Source: Aliiglaciecola sp. LCG003
GTDB taxonomy: Bacteria > Pseudomonadota > Gammaproteobacteria > Enterobacterales > Alteromonadaceae
Direction of reading: 5' to 3'
DNA length: 64,000 nt
Assembly: GCF_030316135.1 (NCBI RefSeq)
Contig: NZ_CP128185.1
Location: 2,790,001-2,854,000, forward strand
Positions 9,226 through 47,869 of the stretch are shown here, one piece after another (the stretch's first letter is position 1; the number at the start of each line of letters is the position of its first letter). The notes beneath the pieces are model-generated. The model was not told the origin of the DNA. It made no database searches and saw nothing but the letters and a program-made list of their open reading frames with translations. Position numbers and translations under genes: made by a program.

Positions 9226-9844
9226 GCAACCCAGATTGCAGTAACTTATACACCGCTATTTTGGGTGTTTTGGCCAGTTTTTGGATTAGCGAAAACGGTA
9301 CATCTTCTCGAGTTGTGATTTGGGAAATATCTTGCAACATGGTCATCCACAATTTCGCTGTCATTTCTGAGTCGAATAACGCCCGGTGGAAGCCGCCATC
9401 GGATGGGATGTTTTTATAGGCGATTAACGAACCGAGTTTATGATTAGGTGCTTGCTGATATAAACGTCGGGCCACCAGTAAAGAGCACGCAAAGGCACCT
9501 GTGTATGCTCTGGATACTCGACGTAACTCGGCATCTAAGAAGCGTTTGTCAAAAGACGCATTGTGGGCAACAAGGTTGCTGTCCCCCATGAAACTAGCAA
9601 ACTCATCCGTCACTTCATCACATGGAGCCGCTTGGCTCAACATCTGATTAGTAATACCGGTATAATCTTCAATGAACGCACTGATGCGCTTACCTGGATT
9701 CATCAATGCCTGAAAACGCTCAACCACTTCCCCCTTTTCAAGACGCACAGCACCAATTTCGATAGCCCTGTCGCCCATATCGGGTGATAGTCCTGTGGTT
9801 TCAAAATCCAGAACTACAAGGGAGTCGGCGCGAGTTTGCGGCAT
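9215..9844 (-). CDS. DnaQ-like 3'-5' exonuclease (DEDDh)
   Basis: 209 residues with the exonuclease signature VVLDFETTGLSPDMGDRAIEIG (DxE, Exo I, near residue 13), an Exo II region NLVAHNASFDKRFLDAEL and the Exo III histidine in HRALFDSEMTAKL. This is the epsilon-subunit/PolC-type fold as a stand-alone enzyme without polymerase domains. Probable role in trimming or repair of DNA or RNA 3' ends; the precise substrate is not visible. It converges on the cold-shock/Excalibur gene. Confidence 0.9.
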   Translation of the reverse strand: MPQTRADSLVVLDFETTGLSPDMGDRAIEIGAVRLEKGEVVERFQALMNPGKRISAFIEDYTGITNQMLSQAAPCDEVTDEFASFMGDSNLVAHNASFDKRFLDAELRRVSRAYTGAFACSLLVARRLYQQAPNHKLGSLIAYKNIPSDGGFHRALFDSEMTAKLWMTMLQDISQITTREDVPFSLIQKLAKTPKIAVYKLLQSGLPKI

Positions 9845-9972
9845 AGTTTAATTACCTGTGGGTGTGAATAGGCTATTTTAACCAAACTTTAAGTGATATC
9901 CGTAGCGCTATTTTAGAAACGCACTTTTGCGGTATTTGTAGTGAACATAATCCATCCCACCGCTTTTCAATA

Positions 9973-23530: not shown

Positions 23531-25237
23531 TTAATACCACTCGGTCAATTGCTGTAAATCGCGCAGGCGATCACGTTGTAAAGAAAACGCTTCAAACACA
23601 TCATCGAAGCTGCGATTTTGGTTTGAAAGCATAGGCAGAGCAAAGCTCGCTTGAGTGAAAAATTCAGACGAATCATCCTGCCAAGCTGATTGCCACCAAT
23701 GAGTTATATCCGATCGGCAGCTATTTAATTTTGATGCACTGGGTAACTTATCTGATTTCTTGATATTAATTTGGCTATTGCTGGGCAGCAAATTCCATAA
23801 GTCGTTATTGGGCCACCGCGCAAATGGTATAGCGTGATCAACGGCATATTTGCCAGTCATACTTAGCCGCTTACCCGACCACACACAATGTACATTTTGC
23901 TGGGCCAAAAGTGCGTCAATACGCTTGCGCACTTTAGTGGTATTGCGATGTGGATTGTCCCAACGCAATGCATCAAAATATTGTTGGCGGGTAAACCCAT
24001 TGTTTTTATTGCCGCTGTATTTCTCCATTTGAGCTACCCACTCATTCAACAAAGCCGGTTCAATCCATACACTAAACTGCGCCATCGCATCCCAAATAGG
24101 TTTGGGTAGGTAAAATGAACCAAAACTGGCTAAATAGTCATTATCAAGCATGATGCATTTGGGTTTACTTTTGAATTTGGTTTGCACCGAAAACACCGCA
24201 TCTTGAGTGCCAGGTAAAGTAATGTATTTCACTGGCATGTCTTTTATGGTGTTACTAATGTCTTTTAAAGTTTGATGCAAGCTACTGGCAAAGTCGTTAG
24301 CACTATTTGAATAACTAGCCCCTACATACAAGTCATTATTTGCAAGCGAAGTAAGCTTTTGCCAACCATTTTCTTTAATAAAACCTAAGCCCTTTTTGCT
24401 GTTGCTATTTTGCTGCATAGCAAAGGTATCAACTAAGGGTTTATATAACTTCATCCAATACAACGATACCAAACCTAGAGGCAACTCAACACAGTCATCG
24501 GTTTGGCTTATCACTGCGCCGGGATGTCCTTCGGCAATGCGCAACAAGGCGCGCAATAGCGCCAATTTATACGTAGAGGCTTTGTTGTCGTTTACTACAA
24601 TGTTGCGTATTAGTGGAAAAGCCCCTGTGCCATTATCAGGCAAGGTAAGCACCACAGTCTGCCAACTTACATCATCGCGACCGAGTTTGTCCTTAGCTAT
24701 CTGCGAGGTAGCTAACTCATATGACAGACCAAACTTGCTGGCTAATTGCGCCTGCTCTGATGTAGACACTTCATACATAACACGCTCGTCATGGCATTCA
24801 CCGTGACGCAGCGATATCACTAACTTGCCATTAGGTTTCAATAAGGTGCTTAGCTTTCTAAAAGCACGTTCACGATTAGATGGTGCAATATGCATCCACA
24901 CTGCGCTAAGTAAAATGAGATCAAATTTAATTTGTAGAGCAAAGACTTTTTGTAACTCTGGAAGCGTATCGTCAAGCCAATGAATATTAAGATTTGAGTG
25001 TTTTTCGCGAGCTAATGAACGCATACCCTCGGCGGGTTCAACAGCAACAACACTTAAACCTTTATCTGCAAGAAATGCTGCATCACGGCCAGACCCTGCA
25101 CCAACATCAAGTGCCCAGCCTTTGTCTGGCAAATGCGTTAGCCAATCACTATGCACATCAGTAAAACTGACATTGTCATATTGGGCACTTAAACTCTCAG
25201 CCTGCTTTGAGTAATAAGTAATATTGCTGGCGCTCAA
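23531..25237 (-). CDS. Class I SAM methyltransferase fused to HNH endonuclease
   Basis: 568 residues. N-terminal Rossmann methyltransferase: ALDVGAGSGRDAAFLA (SAM motif I, about 41-56), an acidic VAVEP loop and LILLSAVWMHIAP (motif IV region, about 106-118). The middle (about 200-440) is not recognised. The C-terminus (about 450-505) carries an HNH-type nuclease: CVWSGKRL, YAVDHAIPFARW, NDLWNLLPSNSQINIKKSDKLP. The methyltransferase part resembles UbiE/Tam-like small-molecule or nucleic-acid enzymes rather than a typical DNA methylase (no DPPY/NPPY). It lies 236 bases downstream of the nuclease-helicase gene on the same strand. The pairing suggests a nucleic-acid modification or defence role (inference). 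Confidence 0.8.
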   Translation of the reverse strand: MSASNITYYSKQAESLSAQYDNVSFTDVHSDWLTHLPDKGWALDVGAGSGRDAAFLADKGLSVVAVEPAEGMRSLAREKHSNLNIHWLDDTLPELQKVFALQIKFDLILLSAVWMHIAPSNRERAFRKLSTLLKPNGKLVISLRHGECHDERVMYEVSTSEQAQLASKFGLSYELATSQIAKDKLGRDDVSWQTVVLTLPDNGTGAFPLIRNIVVNDNKASTYKLALLRALLRIAEGHPGAVISQTDDCVELPLGLVSLYWMKLYKPLVDTFAMQQNSNSKKGLGFIKENGWQKLTSLANNDLYVGASYSNSANDFASSLHQTLKDISNTIKDMPVKYITLPGTQDAVFSVQTKFKSKPKCIMLDNDYLASFGSFYLPKPIWDAMAQFSVWIEPALLNEWVAQMEKYSGNKNNGFTRQQYFDALRWDNPHRNTTKVRKRIDALLAQQNVHCVWSGKRLSMTGKYAVDHAIPFARWPNNDLWNLLPSNSQINIKKSDKLPSASKLNSCRSDITHWWQSAWQDDSSEFFTQASFALPMLSNQNRSFDDVFEAFSLQRDRLRDLQQLTEWY

Positions 25238-25473: not shown

Positions 25474-28400
25474 CTACAAGTCAACCAACTGCTGAAAAAA
25501 ACTAAAGCGTTTAATATCTTCGATATTGCTTGGTGAGCCTTGTAATAGGGTTTCACTGTAAACCACTATGGCGAGTGCTTGCGCTCTTGAAATCGCGACG
25601 TTTAAGCGATTTATGCTTAGCAAAAAATCTGCGCCTCGAGCGGATTCAGCGGCAATACTGGCGGTCATTGAAACAATCACCACTGGCGCTTCTTGGCCTT
25701 GAAATAAATCCACTGTGCCTACTCGCGCATCAAATCCCAATGTCTTTTTAAGCTCGTTTACCTGATGATTAAATGGCGCGACCACCAGTATGTCAGAGCC
25801 GGTGATTGGCTTTTTATTGCCGTTTTTATCGGTGTGCTCACTTTTGAGTAAATCGTCGACCAATAGGCGTATAAGCGCAACTTCTTCTGCGCTACTCTGT
25901 TTGTTACCTGAATGGTCTAGCGGTATTGCGATAATCCCCGCTGACTCGATTAGGCTTGTGTGGTGCTGTTTGGGAAAATGTATGTGTTGTCGATCGCAGT
26001 TAGCATCGTTATCCAATCGGCCTTCATAGACCATCTCTGATATGAACTGATTAACCGCGCTGTGCATGCGGTACGAGCGATTCAGAAAAACGCCCTTGTC
26101 GATGGGCACTGTGGCATGTTCTTGCAGTTGGTAGTCTAAAATCGACAAACTACTGTCGCCTGGATGGCTGCCTTGTAATGGTTGCGGCAATTGCATTTGG
26201 TCGCCCATCACCACAATATTATTGGCATTTTTAGCCATGGCGATGAGGTATGCAACGGATACTTGCCCAGCTTCATCGATAAACAAATAATCAAATGAAT
26301 GCTCATTTTGCGCAAAACCCCATGCGGTTGCACCATATAGACCAGCGCCTTGAAGGTGAATATTGCCATCTCGCGAATTGAGCTGCTGAATAGGGTAAAG
26401 GGAAAACATCTCGTCAGTGTCGTCTTGCTGCACTTTGTACATGGGAATCTGCAGCCCCGCTGCGAGCATAAGCTTCGCAACTGCGCTCATCAGGTTGTTA
26501 ATCGCCTTGTGACTATTGGAGCTGACCCCGATGGATTTACCCTGTTGCAATAACTCAAGGATTACGTGTGATGCAGTGTAGGTCTTGCCTGTTCCAGGTG
26601 GTCCTTGAATGGATAGAAACGAATTATCTAAGCGACATACTGCTTGAGTGATCAATGCCAGTTTGTTGGCGTCTTTGGCACTATCGATTTGCTGCAGTAA
26701 ACCTTGGGGTAACGCTGGTGATCGTCTTAGTAAAAAATCTTCCAGCGGCTTGGATAATTTCTGCTCGTTAGTAAATCTAATGGCTGCTCCGCGCACTCGG
26801 TCCTCAACTGCACCTGGATTAATATATTCATAGGAAATTAGCGTCAGATAATCAGGTAAAGGTGCATTGCGCTTTCCTTTAATCCATACCAGCCCGGCCT
26901 TATCATCAACATTTTCAATACCCACCACACCAATATTTCTTTCCAATACAAAGGCTTGTTTAAAACGCCTATTTCTAAACTCTTGGGATGGAATGAATTG
27001 ATATTCATACACTGGCGCGCCCCTACCGCTTTTGCCCGATGGTTGAGGATCGGTAGCCGTGCGCTCACAACCTACTAGACAGTCAGGATCATCAAATAAT
27101 TCTTCAAAGCTCATGGCTTTACGCTCGAAAAATCGCCACCAGGTCGGTTTGTTTTCACGTGAGAAAAAATCCACTAAATCGGCCAGTTGATTAGTGATCA
27201 GGCTGGTCTGGTGTGATGTACCTTGAGCATCCGCCAATACTCGTAAATTCGTCTCAATTTGTCGAACAGGATCAGGTTCATCTTGGTCAGATTGTTGTGC
27301 CGTTGTGCCTGTTGCCACTGGGAAGGGCTCGACATACTCAATCTGATAATTCTTTTGTAGCTCGCGCAGCCATGCTGTGAGCTCTTGAGTGGAGTTACAA
27401 TCATCAATATTGTAATCACGAATATCGCATAAGACTTTTGAAGTTTGCCAGCTTTGGCCATCGGGAGTTTCTTGCCATTTGGCATACACCACCACCGACT
27501 CACCACCAGAGGCCACATCTGTATCGCGCTGCTCTCTAAAAAGCTGCTCTACTTTTTTGATCGAGTAACTCGGGGCCCCTAAAATCATGCCATGTTGAAT
27601 GACTTTGTATAAATCAACAAATACTCCAGCTCGTAGCATGTCATCGATTTGAGTTTCCATAACGCCATAACGACCCATCAAGCGTTTGCATACACTGATT
27701 TCATAATGACCATAATGATATATGTGCATACTAGGGTTTTGCCGCCAGCGCTTATAGGCGAATTCAGCAAAGTCGATAAATGCTGTCTTTTCTTGTTGAT
27801 GATCATGGGCCCAGCGCTCCCAAAACTGCCGTTTGCCACCAGTGTCGAAGTAACTGCAGCCCCACAAATACTCCAAACCGCCCTCCTCTAATGGAAAGCC
27901 TTCTAGGTCAAAAAATAAATCGCCTTGATCATGGGGCGGCAGGATTGCCAAGCCTTTGGGATCATTTTGGTCCATGGGGAGCAATTCAAACGCCAAAGTT
28001 GCTGTTGTTTCGGTTTGTTTCTGCAACTTAGCTTGGTGCTTAAGACGCTCACTGATCTCTACCGGCATGCTACCAATGCTTAACTGCTTGTTATTGATTA
28101 GTTGTTCGCAGGTGTTGATCCCCGCACGGTTCAACCTTTGAATGTGTAACCTTGTGATATTGGCAATTTTGGATAGGTGATCTTGTTGCTGACGCAATTG
28201 TTCAACATAGTCAGTCCAATCACCAAGGTCTTTGTATGCGAAGGGATCGGGCTGATTGCTCGGGTCAAAGCCTGATTGCTGATTTATAAATTCGGTCTTC
28301 TTCGCCTGATAATAAGCCCAAAAATCTAAGCTGCTATACTGAACTTTCTCTTGGGTACCCAATACAACCGCGATGTTATCTGGCAGCACTCCTTGTACAG

Positions 28401-28875
28401 ACTTTAGTAAGTCGGCGTAGCAACACAGTTGAATGATAAAATACGCTTTAGGCTGTTTGGCTAGCTTAGTGTCCCATGGTTCATATGAATACGAACCCAG
28501 CTTAGATGGCTTATCAACTTTCACTAAAAAATCCGCAAAGCCCTGAAAGCTATCCGCTGCTAAACATGCTTGAAAAATAACATCCGCACCATCTTCCATC
28601 GCAGCAATGGTGGCTGCTATTTTTTCATCATTGGACAGACCATCCCCTATAGTTACCAAGCGCTGTGCGCTTTGGACTAAATTACTAAGATAGTTGGCTT
28701 CATGTTCAAGGCCTTTATCAGCTAAATAACTTAATAAGGGATCAGGTTTATCTTTTAGCGCTTTGGTCTGCGGCTGTTCTAAACAAAGTCTTTCCATCCA
28801 GCTGGCAAATGGAGATTGGACAAAACGAACGAGATCAGAGGGACTAAAAAGAATCGAGCTGTTTTGTTTTCTCAC
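25474..28875 (-). CDS. TM0106-type RecB-like nuclease fused to SF1 helicase
   Basis: 1133 residues. Part 1 (about 1-250): PD-(D/E)XK RecB-like nuclease with FADFLVKV, YEPWDTKLA and IIQLCCYADLL (D, DxK, QxxxY pattern). Part 2 (about 310-510): RNase H-like DEDD exonuclease with DLFFDLEGFPLEEGG, HYGHYEISVCKRL and RDYNIDDCNSTQEL. Part 3: UPF1/Dna2-like SF1 helicase with Walker A QGPPGTGKTYTA (about 757), Walker B LFIDEAGQVS (about 867), GDQMQLPQP, LNRSYRMH, TVDLFQGQE and NVAISRAQ. All motifs look intact. The start overlaps the upstream zinc-ribbon gene stop (ATGA), so the two are co-translated. Domains imply end processing or degradation of DNA. Confidence 0.9.
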   Translation of the reverse strand: MRKQNSSILFSPSDLVRFVQSPFASWMERLCLEQPQTKALKDKPDPLLSYLADKGLEHEANYLSNLVQSAQRLVTIGDGLSNDEKIAATIAAMEDGADVIFQACLAADSFQGFADFLVKVDKPSKLGSYSYEPWDTKLAKQPKAYFIIQLCCYADLLKSVQGVLPDNIAVVLGTQEKVQYSSLDFWAYYQAKKTEFINQQSGFDPSNQPDPFAYKDLGDWTDYVEQLRQQQDHLSKIANITRLHIQRLNRAGINTCEQLINNKQLSIGSMPVEISERLKHQAKLQKQTETTATLAFELLPMDQNDPKGLAILPPHDQGDLFFDLEGFPLEEGGLEYLWGCSYFDTGGKRQFWERWAHDHQQEKTAFIDFAEFAYKRWRQNPSMHIYHYGHYEISVCKRLMGRYGVMETQIDDMLRAGVFVDLYKVIQHGMILGAPSYSIKKVEQLFREQRDTDVASGGESVVVYAKWQETPDGQSWQTSKVLCDIRDYNIDDCNSTQELTAWLRELQKNYQIEYVEPFPVATGTTAQQSDQDEPDPVRQIETNLRVLADAQGTSHQTSLITNQLADLVDFFSRENKPTWWRFFERKAMSFEELFDDPDCLVGCERTATDPQPSGKSGRGAPVYEYQFIPSQEFRNRRFKQAFVLERNIGVVGIENVDDKAGLVWIKGKRNAPLPDYLTLISYEYINPGAVEDRVRGAAIRFTNEQKLSKPLEDFLLRRSPALPQGLLQQIDSAKDANKLALITQAVCRLDNSFLSIQGPPGTGKTYTASHVILELLQQGKSIGVSSNSHKAINNLMSAVAKLMLAAGLQIPMYKVQQDDTDEMFSLYPIQQLNSRDGNIHLQGAGLYGATAWGFAQNEHSFDYLFIDEAGQVSVAYLIAMAKNANNIVVMGDQMQLPQPLQGSHPGDSSLSILDYQLQEHATVPIDKGVFLNRSYRMHSAVNQFISEMVYEGRLDNDANCDRQHIHFPKQHHTSLIESAGIIAIPLDHSGNKQSSAEEVALIRLLVDDLLKSEHTDKNGNKKPITGSDILVVAPFNHQVNELKKTLGFDARVGTVDLFQGQEAPVVIVSMTASIAAESARGADFLLSINRLNVAISRAQALAIVVYSETLLQGSPSNIEDIKRFSFFQQLVDL

Positions 28876-29555
28876 GATGCGTTCCTTGCATTATTTACCA
28901 TATCGGGCTCTTTGATGGCCATCAAACTGGTGTTTTTACTGTTACACCAGCGCTTTCCTTGCTCGACAACATGGGCAAACTCTTTACCGGTCACGTTAGC
29001 ATAGTTTTGTTTTGAAAGTAAAAACTCCCCACGAAGTCTGTAAATATCGGCGCAAATCAATATGTATTCATCGATGGCTGGTACCATGGGATGGTCTAAC
29101 ATAAAGTCCGTAAGCATACGGTAGGCCCGCTGGTATTCATTCGATGCCACTCGCTCACTGCCATACACTTTGAAATTGATATTAAACTCTCGGTAAGCCA
29201 GAACCGCATACCTGCGCTGTTGCAAAATATCAGAGGCATCATTGAAAAGGTCAAGATAAACATCAAAGGATGCCTGAGGTAGATAGTAAAGCGACTCTTT
29301 GGGTGCAAACCATTGTCGCCAAAAAGACTTTCTTGATTGGGTGCCTAACGCAGGCAGCGCGTCCACATCCTTGATAATTTTGCTGCAATGGGTACAACGA
29401 CTTTCACGCACAATAACATTGCTCAATATCCCGCCATTACCGCCGTCGGAGTAAGTTTGTTGACCAAACATACTTAAACTGCGTAATACACGACGAAGGT
29501 AACGAGATTCACAGTGAGGGCAAGCAATAATATCTGGATCCGCAAAACTGGTCAT
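28872..29555 (-). CDS. Zinc-ribbon / helical-repeat protein of unknown function
   Basis: 227 residues. Two CxxC pairs (C12/C15 and C54/C57: ACPHCESRYL ... SRCTHCSK) form a predicted zinc ribbon. The remainder is helical and TPR-like (YLDLFNDASDILQQRRYAV ... ADIYRLRGEFLLSKQNYANVTGK). GGGGA precedes the ATG. It is coupled by ATGA overlaps at both ends: upstream to a 42-residue repeat ORF and downstream to the nuclease-helicase. It is probably a dedicated partner or nucleic-acid-binding subunit of the helicase. No family recognised. Confidence 0.75.
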   Translation of the reverse strand: MTSFADPDIIACPHCESRYLRRVLRSLSMFGQQTYSDGGNGGILSNVIVRESRCTHCSKIIKDVDALPALGTQSRKSFWRQWFAPKESLYYLPQASFDVYLDLFNDASDILQQRRYAVLAYREFNINFKVYGSERVASNEYQRAYRMLTDFMLDHPMVPAIDEYILICADIYRLRGEFLLSKQNYANVTGKEFAHVVEQGKRWCNSKNTSLMAIKEPDMVNNARNAS

Positions 29556-29680
29556 ACTCGTCCCCTTTCGTTCAAGGAATTATCGTTGGGTTGGCAAATC
29601 GGCTTTGGCAAGACAGCCATGATGAAGTCGGGTTGGCAAATCGGCTTTGGCAAGACAGCCATGATGAAGTCCATTTTCAT
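29552..29680 (-). CDS. 42-residue small ORF with two perfect 14-residue repeats
   Basis: The ATG at 29680 has GGAG about 10 bases upstream and lies 11 bases after the DUF4258-like stop codon. The frame contains DFIMAVLPKPICQP twice in tandem (42 bp x 2, DNA 29588-29671), then a polar tail. Its TGA overlaps the ATG of the zinc-ribbon gene (ATGA). It may be a real small protein or a coupling/leader ORF. It is too short to call by length alone; the ribosome binding site, the in-frame repeat and the overlap support translation. Confidence 0.5.
   Translation of the reverse strand: MKMDFIMAVLPKPICQPDFIMAVLPKPICQPNDNSLNERGRV
29588..29671. repeat. Perfect 42-bp tandem duplication
   Basis: Unit starting GGGTTGGCAAATCGGCTTTG at 29588 and again at 29630, two identical 42-bp copies. 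42 is a multiple of three and the duplication keeps the minus-strand small ORF open. Perfect identity implies recent duplication or ongoing slippage. Confidence 0.95.
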
Positions 29681-29691
29681 GTTACGTTCTC

Positions 29692-29940
29692 CTAGTGCTT
29701 ATGTGCGATGGTAATGACATGGTCGTCATCTGAGATAACCACAAACACATTGCGCTGAATTTGCATTAACAATCGTTTGAGTTTTTTTGTTAAGGTTTTC
29801 TGAGTGTGCTTGTCGAGTTCAAGCACATAGGTGTTGCCCTTCTGTTGGGTTTCCATTCCTAAAGCGTTTAGCAATACAACAAGGTCTGGAGAAATACCGC
29901 GCTGCTGACAACGCTTCTGAGCATGTTGAGAGATGGTCAT
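29692..29940 (-). CDS. DUF4258-like small protein (82 aa)
   Basis: Starts MTISQHAQKRCQQRGISPDLVV and ends VVISDDDHVITIAHKH. The HAxxRxxQRGI opening and histidine-containing beta-strand ending match the DUF4258 pattern, a small fold often found near toxin-antitoxin or mobile genes. First gene of the operon leading to the nuclease-helicase. The promoter region is shared with a divergent WYL regulator gene and contains a perfect inverted repeat. A toxin or RNA-cleaving role is possible but not shown. Confidence 0.7.
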   Translation of the reverse strand: MTISQHAQKRCQQRGISPDLVVLLNALGMETQQKGNTYVLELDKHTQKTLTKKLKRLLMQIQRNVFVVISDDDHVITIAHKH

Positions 29941-29977
29941 GGTGGCTTCCTCTTGTTTAAACCGTGAAATAATAATA

Positions 29978-29994
29978 TGTCGTCAATTACGACA
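29978..29994. promoter_or_regulatory. Palindromic operator (site 1) for WYL regulator
   Basis: TGTCGT-CAATT-ACGACA, perfect 6-bp arms with a 5-base spacer, 38 bases upstream of the DUF4258-like start. A related site lies at 30201-30217. The arrangement fits autoregulation by a BrxR/CapW-type protein. Confidence 0.65.
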
Positions 29995-30200
29995 GGTAAA
30001 TCACTGTTCGGATAAACATGAGTAGTTTTCAGGCAGGAATGTGCATAAATCCAACAGGGGCGGATTGGCAAACAGGCCAACCCCCTTATTATTAAAGGGA
30101 TTTACATTTTTAGAAATTTGACACATGTACATTAACCATACATATTTAATAAATTATTTTGCTGTTAATGAAGTTTTGTGTTGTTATTTATCACATTAAA

Positions 30201-30217
30201 TGTAGCTATTGACGACA
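30201..30217. promoter_or_regulatory. Palindromic operator (site 2), imperfect
   Basis: TGTAGC-TATTG-ACGACA keeps the 6-5-6 spacing and the ACGACA half of site 1. It ends four bases before the WYL gene ATG, placed to block translation start or promoter clearance. Found by comparison with site 1. Confidence 0.5.
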
Positions 30218-30220
30218 CAT

Positions 30221-31090
30221 ATGAAACAAAAATCCCATTGGCCGTTTCGGTATGACTTATTGCAGCGCTATCGATTGATTGAGATAGTGGCGCTGTGGGA
30301 AGGTAAATTAAATGCAGGCCATCTTATCGATTACTTTGGGATCGGTAGACAACAAGCCTCGAAAGATATCACTGAATACCGACAAAGCATTGGCCCAGAC
30401 AACCTTAGTTATAATTCATCCTTGAAAGGGTATGAGCCCACAGAACAATTTAGTCCGAAAGTGACCTTAGGTGACGCAGATGAATACTTACAGCTTATTC
30501 ATCGCAACAGTGACTTGATGAATACTTTCGAAGACATGACCTTGGGCTTTAATTACACCCATAAAATACCCCTACCCACTTATCGAATACGACCGGAAGT
30601 GCTACGCCAGATTGTCAAAGCTTGTCGCAATAAAACCCGGTTAGAAGTTGATTATCGTTCGGTGAATACTCCTGATAAAGATGGTCGCATTATTGTGCCC
30701 CACTCTATTGTGCATTCAGGAATGCGCTGGCATGTGCGCGCCTTTTGTGAAAAGAACCAGGATTATCGTGATTTTGTACTCACCCGTTTTTATGGCACCC
30801 CTGAGCCTATGGGCACTAGCACACAAACCATTATCCAAGATGAGGCCTGGAACACGCAGGTAAATGTGTGTTTCACCCCAGACCAGCGCCTATCAGCAGA
30901 GCAACAAGCCATAGTTGCGAATGATTATGGTATGAGTGACAACCTACTTCTGATAAAAGTCCGTGGTGCGCTGGTGCAGTACTTGATGCAGATGATGCGT
31001 ATCGACATGAATGTCATTGCTGCCGACCCCAGAGCACAACAAGTGGTGATCCAGAATATGGACGCGGTGAAGCAGTGGTTATTTAGATAG
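30221..31090 (+). CDS. WYL-domain transcriptional regulator (BrxR/CapW-like)
   Basis: About 289 residues (ATG at 30221; a TTG at 30209 is an alternative). N-terminal winged HTH (LIDYFGIGRQQASKDITEYR), then a WYL domain (about 120-200: LRQIVKACRNKTRLEVDYRSV ... IVPHSIVHSGMRWHVRAFCEKNQDYRDFVLTRF) and a C-terminal WCX-like extension. The RWHVRAFC core is characteristic of the BrxR/CapW group that controls BREX, CBASS and other defence loci. Divergent from the nuclease-helicase operon, with 6-5-6 palindromes in between, it is the likely repressor or ligand-responsive switch of that operon. A DUF3293 gene follows. Confidence 0.9.
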   Translation: MKQKSHWPFRYDLLQRYRLIEIVALWEGKLNAGHLIDYFGIGRQQASKDITEYRQSIGPDNLSYNSSLKGYEPTEQFSPKVTLGDADEYLQLIHRNSDLMNTFEDMTLGFNYTHKIPLPTYRIRPEVLRQIVKACRNKTRLEVDYRSVNTPDKDGRIIVPHSIVHSGMRWHVRAFCEKNQDYRDFVLTRFYGTPEPMGTSTQTIIQDEAWNTQVNVCFTPDQRLSAEQQAIVANDYGMSDNLLLIKVRGALVQYLMQMMRIDMNVIAADPRAQQVVIQNMDAVKQWLFR

Positions 31091-31130
31091 AAAAATTGCT
31101 GTCGTGTTTGACTGATAAGGAATAGACAAC

Positions 31131-31568
31131 ATGATTGACGAGCACCTTTTGCATGCTTATCGCACCGCGAAATATATGGTTGAATATGCCGGTGAACTAC
31201 ATCGGCTTCATGTGGGCGAAACCTCTGAAGTGGTAAACACAATTCTGCGTTTAAAAAACCTTAAAAGTGCCTATTTTATCACCCCTGAAAACCCTTTTAG
31301 TTGTATGCTTTCAGCACAGGAAAACGCACTGCGCCACCAACGATTTTGCGATGAACTAAAAAAGCATAAATACTTTTATTTATCCGGCTACGGCACTGAT
31401 GAAGCTGAAAGCTGGGCGAAAGAATCTAGCTACTTAATTTTTACCGATGACGAGTCATCGATGCAGGATCTAGCCGCCCGTTTTGGTCAAAATGCTTTTT
31501 TGAAAGTCACTGAAGAATTGCCCACACAATTGTTTGTGCTTGATGCGCAGCGATACACCCAAGGTTAA
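31131..31568 (+). CDS. DUF3293-family protein
   Basis: 145 residues matching the DUF3293 pattern: LHAYRTAKYMV near the start, SAYFITPENPFSCMLSAQEN in the centre, FYLSGYGTDEAESWAKESSYLIF and a QNAFLKV...PTQLFVLD ending. Function of the family is unknown. It begins 40 bases after the WYL gene and is probably cotranscribed. DUF3293 also occurs as a stand-alone housekeeping-like gene, so its link to the neighbouring operon is uncertain. Confidence 0.8.
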   Translation: MIDEHLLHAYRTAKYMVEYAGELHRLHVGETSEVVNTILRLKNLKSAYFITPENPFSCMLSAQENALRHQRFCDELKKHKYFYLSGYGTDEAESWAKESSYLIFTDDESSMQDLAARFGQNAFLKVTEELPTQLFVLDAQRYTQG

Positions 31569-47551: not shown

Positions 47552-47627
47552 TGGTGGGTCGTGCTGGATTCGAACCAGCGACCAATTGATTAAAAGTCAA
47601 CTGCTCTACCAACTGAGCTAACGACCC
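47552..47627 (-). tRNA. tRNA-Lys (TTT)
   Basis: Minus strand GGGTCGTTAGCTCAGTTGGT start, anticodon TTT in GACTTTTAATC, T-arm GGTTCGAATCC, encoded CCA. 76 nt. Confidence 0.96.
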
Positions 47628-47793
47628 ATCTAATTGAAGCTTACCAATGTCAGAATTTAGGATGAGCCTAAATTCTGTCGAAGTCCTGTTCTTTACCCTT
47701 ATCGGGTTATGCTTAGCATATTCAAATTTGCGTCCTGCAAAGTTGTCGAAGGTTTTAAGGATTATTTGACAACTAGTCGTATAATCCTGAAAG

Positions 47794-47869
47794 TGGTGGG
47801 TCGTGCTGGATTCGAACCAGCGACCAATTGATTAAAAGTCAACTGCTCTACCAGCTGAGCTAACGACCC
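47794..47869 (-). tRNA. tRNA-Lys (TTT), second copy
   Basis: Differs from the first copy by one base in the D-arm (CAGCTGG for CAGTTGG). 76 nt with CCA. The two lie 166 bases apart, and the spacer holds a degenerate hairpin-rich stretch (ACCCTTATCGGGT). Positions 47870-48043 show no gene. Confidence 0.96.

Follow-up and report, generated by a model that had tools for sequence, protein, structure and literature searches.

A candidate exchangeable immune cassette with a BrxR/CapW-type WYL regulator and a TM0106 nuclease-helicase in Aliiglaciecola

The stretch analysed here comprises 64,000 nucleotides of the Aliiglaciecola sp. LCG003 genome (NZ_CP128185.1, positions 2,790,001 to 2,854,000) and is referred to as the window. 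In it, a gene for a WYL regulator faces an operon-like row of genes encoding a DUF4258-like protein, a zinc-ribbon protein and a TM0106 nuclease-helicase, with two similar palindromes lying between. The locus probably represents an immune cassette that can be exchanged and whose effector is uncharacterised. In a fuller reading, drawn from sequence comparison and held with moderate confidence, it would be a WYL-controlled, inducible and modular anti-phage (or anti-plasmid) cassette with the Dna2-like nuclease-helicase as effector. This reading is preferred because the regulator is homologous to BrxR and CapW, the payload behind the head (the regulator and front genes) is exchanged in relatives and a candidate operator is shared with them. 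It is also preferred because WYL genes are enriched upstream of TM0106, because TM0106 adjoins BREX/TrlF, McrBC, multiubiquitin/ThiF and RmuC genes, and because its catalytic residues are conserved and its top fold match is Dna2. Finally, exchange is seen even without the head in one relative (G567), where cas1f adjoins what is left of the zinc-ribbon and TM0106 genes. The locus is more than a chance arrangement since homologues are found for each protein except a 42-residue peptide, and all open reading frames (ORFs) of the original prediction are present where it had placed them.

A retained head in front of different payloads

The regulator gene (30209-31090, plus strand) encodes a protein with a winged helix-turn-helix and a WYL domain (Pfam, 3e-13). 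Residues 14-288, nearly its entire length, match BrxR (PDB 7t8k, E 7.6e-57), and CapW is matched as well (7tb6, 1.6e-40); by similarity the protein is thus a BrxR/CapW relative, as had been proposed. Its orthologues are 83-84% identical in two congeners and 68% identical in another genus (G121). The ORF opens with a TTG at 30209; since a candidate operator (30201-30217) covers this codon, translation more likely begins from an ATG at 30221.

The palindromes announced between the divergent genes correspond to two similar candidate sites within 29978-30217. The first, TGTCG-N7-CGACA (29978-29994), stands in front of the DUF4258-like gene and is exact in the window, in the congener G564 and in G121, with one mismatch in the congener G562. 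The second, TGTAG-N7-CGACA (30201-30217), differs from the first by one mismatch and is the sole other match in the window when one mismatch is allowed. The count by itself is ordinary, as chance predicts 0.94 such matches for 64 kb and at least two occurred in 25 of 100 shuffles; what is not ordinary is that both sites fall within 29978-30217 and that the first is conserved. Paralogues of the regulator, 37-42% identical to it, stand directly before type I-F cas genes at three loci (L159, L160 and L162; Csy1 confirmed by family search for L160, the other cas calls made by eye), and the candidate operator is not found before these three. One of them belongs to the window's own genome (L160, 1505000-1524900), which thus has a second BrxR-like WYL protein, 41% identical to the first, directly before a type I-F cas operon. 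Another paralogue, 43% identical, lies near SbcD/SbcC-like genes identified by eye.

Exchange of the payload is clearest in G562, where the head (WYL 83%, DUF4258 88% and zinc ribbon 39% identical) is followed by an ORF of 63 residues; over the first 50 of these it shares 60% identity with the start of TM0106. Behind this remnant come cas1f, cas3f, Csy1, Csy2, Csy3 and Csy4, with array-like repeats seen by eye. In G564, the WYL, DUF4258 and zinc-ribbon genes are present and TM0106 is not found, so zinc ribbon and DUF4258 accompany the window-type regulator in three genomes of the genus. In G121 (L189, 9500-10072), the DUF4258 protein is cut after residue 47, its N-terminal 47 residues being 68% identical to the window's, and is fused to the C-terminal part of an RmuC protein. 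Behind the WYL gene and this chimera stand two HNH-like genes (by eye) and then ZorA1, ZorB1 and ZorC1 of a type I Zorya system, and no TM0106 is detected in that genome at 1e-60. Judged from these gene orders, a retained head precedes another payload in G562 and, with a damaged front gene, in G121. As RmuC follows TM0106 at four other loci, our guess for G121 is that TM0106 once stood between DUF4258 and RmuC and was lost by deletion.

Two further genomes carry zinc-ribbon and TM0106 remnants. These are followed in G569 by a methyltransferase-HNH gene sharing 46% identity with that of the window, and in G567 by cas1f and a cas3f-like gene recognised by eye. Both contain two TM0106 remnants, covering the first 42-56 residues and about 570 bp apart (L182 8678-9550 in G569; L183 8918-9783 in G567), the second of which precedes the methyltransferase-HNH gene or cas1f, respectively. 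G569, G567 and G564 probably hold one and the same chromosomal site since flanking genes, compared by eye, are shared. The methyltransferase-HNH gene of the window (23531-25237, minus strand), a class I methyltransferase fused to an HNH_4 nuclease according to Pfam, had been taken for a mere neighbour; the relative retained behind TM0106 remnants in G569 speaks against that description.

The front gene (29692-29940, minus strand) encodes an 82-residue protein for which the DUF4258-like label is weak, with a Pfam E of 0.0027 and 18.4 bits against a gathering cut-off of 25 for PF14076, short of family membership. It is 88-89% identical in G562 and G564, and the motif HAxxRCQQRGI is common to it and to DUF4258 proteins beside TM0106 on two alphaproteobacterial plasmids. 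The following 42-residue ORF (29552-29680, minus strand) contains a 42-bp tandem duplication matching at 40 of 42 positions and occurs at one place only in its own genome. G562 and G564 lack it, their zinc-ribbon ORF lying directly behind DUF4258, and by this comparison it is probably a lineage-specific insertion rather than a conserved gene.

The zinc-ribbon protein (28872-29555, minus strand; CPHC...CTHC) evolves fast. Its description as zinc-ribbon/TPR-like holds in part: the zinc ribbon is weak by family search (best E 0.014, below cut-off) and the TPR-like part is unproven as the structure model failed, with a predicted local distance difference test (pLDDT) of 36.5. C12, C15, C54 and C57 are nevertheless invariant across seven aligned sequences, window included. 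PDB sequence searches return nothing usable for this protein (best E 0.0081) or for the DUF4258-like one (best 0.024). The zinc ribbon is 38-39% identical between the window and G562 or G564, against 83-89% for DUF4258 and WYL, which suggests rapid change or recombination. Counting its own genome each time, it is found in 2 of 197 genomes of the order (single-sequence search), in 10 of 196 of the family, some as fragments (profile of three), and in 3 of 369 of the class (profile of seven). A relative occurs on one viral contig (L176); no plasmid record matches, no phage record matches when that relative instead of the window protein serves as query, and a genome scan with the zinc ribbon as query confirms no relative. 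A zinc-ribbon gene broken by stops stands right before BrxA-BrxB-BrxC in G712 (L184, about 9235-9880). In G666 (L188, 7421-8737), a zinc-ribbon N-terminus is joined to the C-terminal part of a type I methyltransferase, the chimera lying between AbiEii and a specificity subunit. Other distant relatives have no recognised defence system directly adjoining. A WYL-WCX regulator gene adjoins one distant relative (L193, 647-2756), and a divergent DUF3293 gene stands alongside another (L194, 3924-5319).

A DUF3293 gene is also found near the window's cassette (31131-31568, plus strand; Pfam 7e-17), of which its membership is uncertain. It likewise adjoins the WYL gene in G562, where it is 36% identical, and lies about 4 kb from it in G564.

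The TM0106 protein and its neighbours elsewhere

The large protein (25474-28875, minus strand, 1133 residues) scores 242 bits against TIGR03491, well above the curated cut-off of 97.45, and thus belongs to TM0106. Its gene overlaps the zinc-ribbon ORF by four bases; two ATGA overlaps had been described, but only the one between peptide and zinc ribbon is ATGA, the other being GTGA because the nuclease-helicase starts with GTG. Pfam recognises RNase_H_2 and AAA_11/AAA_12, and the layout is Dna2-like, a RecB-type nuclease preceding a superfamily 1 (SF1) Upf1-like helicase, with a DEDD exonuclease in between. Homologues were aligned in sets of 13 sequences (34-46% identical to the window protein) and 44 sequences (27-46%), window included. 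The claim of intact motifs stands, key residues being kept in 43 or 44 of the 44 sequences: D115, K137, Q149, Y153, E325, the Walker A G-K, D867-E868 and R1097 in all, and D135, D323, Y488 and D492 in 43. These include the RecB-type PD-(D/E)XK residues (D115, D135-x-K137, Q149, Y153) and the DEDD residues (D323-x-E325, Y488, D492).

The AlphaFold2 model of this protein (mean pLDDT 89.2, predicted template modelling score 0.86) has Dna2 as top Foldseek match in the PDB (E 2.7e-27, across nuclease and helicase), followed by Ighmbp2 and Upf1. A PDB sequence profile search with the helicase part retrieves Ighmbp2, Upf1 and Dna2. Cysteines binding an iron-sulphur cluster are typical of Dna2 and Cas4. 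The pattern CxxCxWxxxC is present in the nuclease of the 44-sequence majority consensus; the window protein has no cysteines around residues 209-225, and the pattern is also missing from most of the first 13 aligned sequences.

TM0106 is found in 9 of 369 genomes of the class, own included, at 1e-40, and in 72 plasmid records at 1e-20, among which 58 reach 80% cover or more and 25 are conjugative. A capped genome scan yields 287 relatives, of which 80 loci are kept, from several phyla by record titles. Viral contigs provide 34 loci, the first six strong, and a viral scan with a single TM0106 protein confirms no relative. E. coli genomes give no DNA match.

Neighbours were scored at 95 loci: the window, 5 plasmids, 6 genomes, 77 contigs and 6 of the 34 viral contigs. 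This set is not de-duplicated, many loci are cut at contig ends, and 3 of the 80 kept loci gave no scored ORF. A WYL gene lies within three ORFs upstream of TM0106 at 11 of the 94 other loci. With a profile seeded with the window protein and then iterated, WYL makes up 13 of 233 ORFs at positions -1 to -3, where a single broken gene in L019 contributes two. The share is lower among more distant ORFs, 5 of 791 (Fisher p 9e-6), and among downstream ones, 1 of 243. In PLSDB annotation, read for 25 of the 72 plasmid records picked for variety and not at random, a divergent WYL gene stands at most two genes upstream of TM0106 in 13, all from Alphaproteobacteria. The WYL-TM0106 pairing therefore recurs, although the WYL proteins compared belong to other subfamilies. 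A palindrome-like GACA-N5-TGTC site is visible by eye between the divergent WYL and TM0106 genes of four alphaproteobacterial plasmids (L195, L206, L209, L211).

Several defence genes adjoin TM0106 on plasmids, as McrB/McrC-like genes (Pfam McrBC confirmed in two), multiubiquitin with ThiF and DUF6527, and, on one plasmid each, a cytosine methyltransferase, and BREX with TrlF. SbcD/SbcC-like genes are found downstream of TM0106 on a plasmid, and DUF4258 genes lie behind it on the two similarly arranged plasmids; one of these DUF4258 proteins was scored and reaches 23.2 bits, where Pfam requires 25. RmuC, a domain that the available text of PMC10270631 also places in Shield, directly follows TM0106 at L019, L029, L030 and L038 (Pfam), whose hosts are a gammaproteobacterium, two Melainabacteria-type metagenome-assembled genomes and Xenophilus.

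The zinc-ribbon, DUF4258, DUF3293 and methyltransferase-HNH genes of the window are not found at the other 94 loci by single-sequence searches at E 0.01, which may miss diverged copies. The original prediction had described a four-gene unit and set recurrence of its genes elsewhere as a test. The pairing of WYL with TM0106 is present elsewhere and that of DUF4258 partly so; the peptide, which is not conserved, drops out of the unit, and outside the genus no zinc ribbon is found next to TM0106. A conserved four-gene system is rejected on the basis of this neighbour search and the absence of the peptide from congeners.

Weighing the proposed function

In the preferred reading, a repressor dimer would sit on both palindromes and keep the operon shut until infection or DNA damage produces a ligand for the WYL domain that releases repression. 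TM0106 would then load on DNA ends or forks, its Upf1/Dna2-like motor unwinding the duplex. The threaded strand would be trimmed by the RecB-type nuclease and 3' ends degraded by the DEDD domain, so that replicating phage DNA would be destroyed. DUF4258 and the zinc ribbon could have an accessory role or serve in recruitment; the zinc ribbon, which evolves fast, is a candidate for a sensor or adaptor. Recombination would keep the head and swap the payload, which is TM0106 in the window, type I-F CRISPR-Cas in G562 and Zorya in G121.

Several observations weigh against this immune cassette. TM0106 is found in one of nine genomes of its genus (its own, E 1e-15; one of the nine is 59% complete) and in one of 197 of the order (again its own, E 1e-60). 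The BrxR-type pairing with TM0106 is seen only in the window's genus. All 11 WYL proteins aligned from beside other TM0106 genes (7 from plasmids, 4 from genome or viral loci) share no more than 13-16% identity with that of the window and differ in helix-turn-helix sequence; because of this low identity, a single inherited WYL-TM0106 module is not supported and the pairing seems to have arisen on more than one occasion. No WYL or DUF4258 gene is found within the 18-19 kb read in G567 and G569, and several TM0106 plasmid loci have no recognised defence neighbour. Lastly, a PADLOC contrast between 110 near proteins (out of 322) and 110 far ones (out of 243), all of 120-900 residues and sampled from named contigs, does not separate cleanly, with 189 against 128 families matched at 1e-10, because a few restriction genes each match many models and the tally is of families, not of members with a match. 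The near set includes WYL (4 members), PDC-M49A (2), SngC, JetA and SspE, and the far set type I specificity (2) and mad3 (2).

A broader proposal is advanced more tentatively. A large, still undescribed defence family might have TM0106 as its common core: a motor resembling Dna2 that destroys DNA, is controlled by independently recruited WYL repressors and is joined to exchangeable partners for target recognition. As part of the same tentative claim, the partner modules might be McrBC, multiubiquitin/ThiF, RmuC, SbcCD-like genes and the set of DUF4258, zinc ribbon and methyltransferase-HNH, with the window's head as a swap platform whose payload would alternate among TM0106, type I-F CRISPR-Cas and Zorya through recombination within genes.

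Alternatively, TM0106 could be a complete single-gene defence protein, with zinc ribbon, DUF4258 and methyltransferase-HNH as passengers of a defence hotspot. Its neighbours vary by locus, the plasmids with no recognised defence partner suit it, and 58 of the 95 loci lack a same-strand next ORF of at least 80 residues within 100 bp, including loci that end there. This is nevertheless unlikely, as G562 and the remnants of G567 and G569 preserve the four-base overlap with the zinc-ribbon ORF, the methyltransferase-HNH gene persists in G569, and DUF4258 recurs beside TM0106 on the two similar plasmids. Somewhat less likely still is a bacterial Dna2 for DNA repair or recombination, co-expressed with defence genes under a DNA-damage-sensing WYL protein. 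The fold, the SbcD/SbcC-like or RmuC genes that follow TM0106, and AlkB and DNA polymerase genes near it on the opposite strand of one plasmid would fit such an enzyme, but its scattered distribution rich in plasmids (72 plasmid records and 9 of 369 genomes of the class), its decay to remnants within one genus and its defence neighbours do not. That DUF4258 and the regulator form a toxin-antitoxin-like addiction head stabilising the cargo behind them is very improbable: DUF4258 shows the highest conservation among the three proteins compared (88-93% identical) and accompanies WYL in both G562 and G564, but no antitoxin partner is recognised, the DUF4258 Pfam score is below cut-off, and in G121 the protein is cut short and joined to the end of an RmuC.

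If TM0106 proteins are indeed defence effectors, a widespread family, present in several phyla and on plasmids and annotated merely as putative nuclease, gains a function. The retention of regulator and front gene before TM0106, CRISPR-Cas and Zorya also constitutes a natural experiment on the exchange of immune cassettes. Elsewhere in the window, a tandem pair of tRNA-Lys(ttt) genes occupies 47552-47869.

Comparison with known systems

The combination had been described as falling outside the named systems, and PADLOC 2023 agrees, returning for the large protein 13 families with an E of at most 0.1, each matching over part of its length. Mokosh (MkoA) gives the best-matched stretch, residues 844-1122 in the helicase (1.8e-45), but the helicase part alone matches, so the protein does not qualify as Mokosh, and no PLD or kinase partner is present among the seven cassette and flanking proteins scanned. 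Hna has an N-terminal SF2 helicase and a C-terminal nuclease; it is ruled out since the window protein has an N-terminal nuclease and a C-terminal SF1-type helicase. Eukaryotic Dna2 is the best fold match over nuclease and helicase, but the window protein has an extra DEDD exonuclease, lacks the cluster cysteines and differs in domain placement, as indicated by a root-mean-square deviation of 25 A.

The UvrD-Cas4 fusions of PMC5704561 also join helicase and nuclease in a defence context, with type III restriction and in some cases WYL; they differ by a UvrD-type helicase and a pfam12705 nuclease, and the sections available describe no DEDD domain. For COG2251, an RNase H-like 3'-5' exonuclease with PD-(D/E)XK-like and AAA domains is already predicted in PMC3985635, the accessible portion of which describes no defence role. 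No report of TM0106/TIGR03491/COG2251 as a defence protein was found in the open-access literature searched, and the portions available of PMC11090510 and PMC12839542 do not mention TM0106.

There is also a close likeness to the BrxR/CapW WYL regulators (PMC9122601, PMC9122589, PMC10270631, as far as their available text goes), with which the window shares the sequence family, a palindromic site near the promoter (here a candidate) and an association with a variety of defence systems, CRISPR-Cas and Zorya among them. In the available passages of Picton 2022 (PMC9122601), BrxR homologues adjoin BREX, restriction, CRISPR-Cas and Zorya systems. TM0106 is not mentioned in the available text of these three sources, and the window differs from BrxR/CapW loci in having DUF4258 and a zinc ribbon between regulator and effector.

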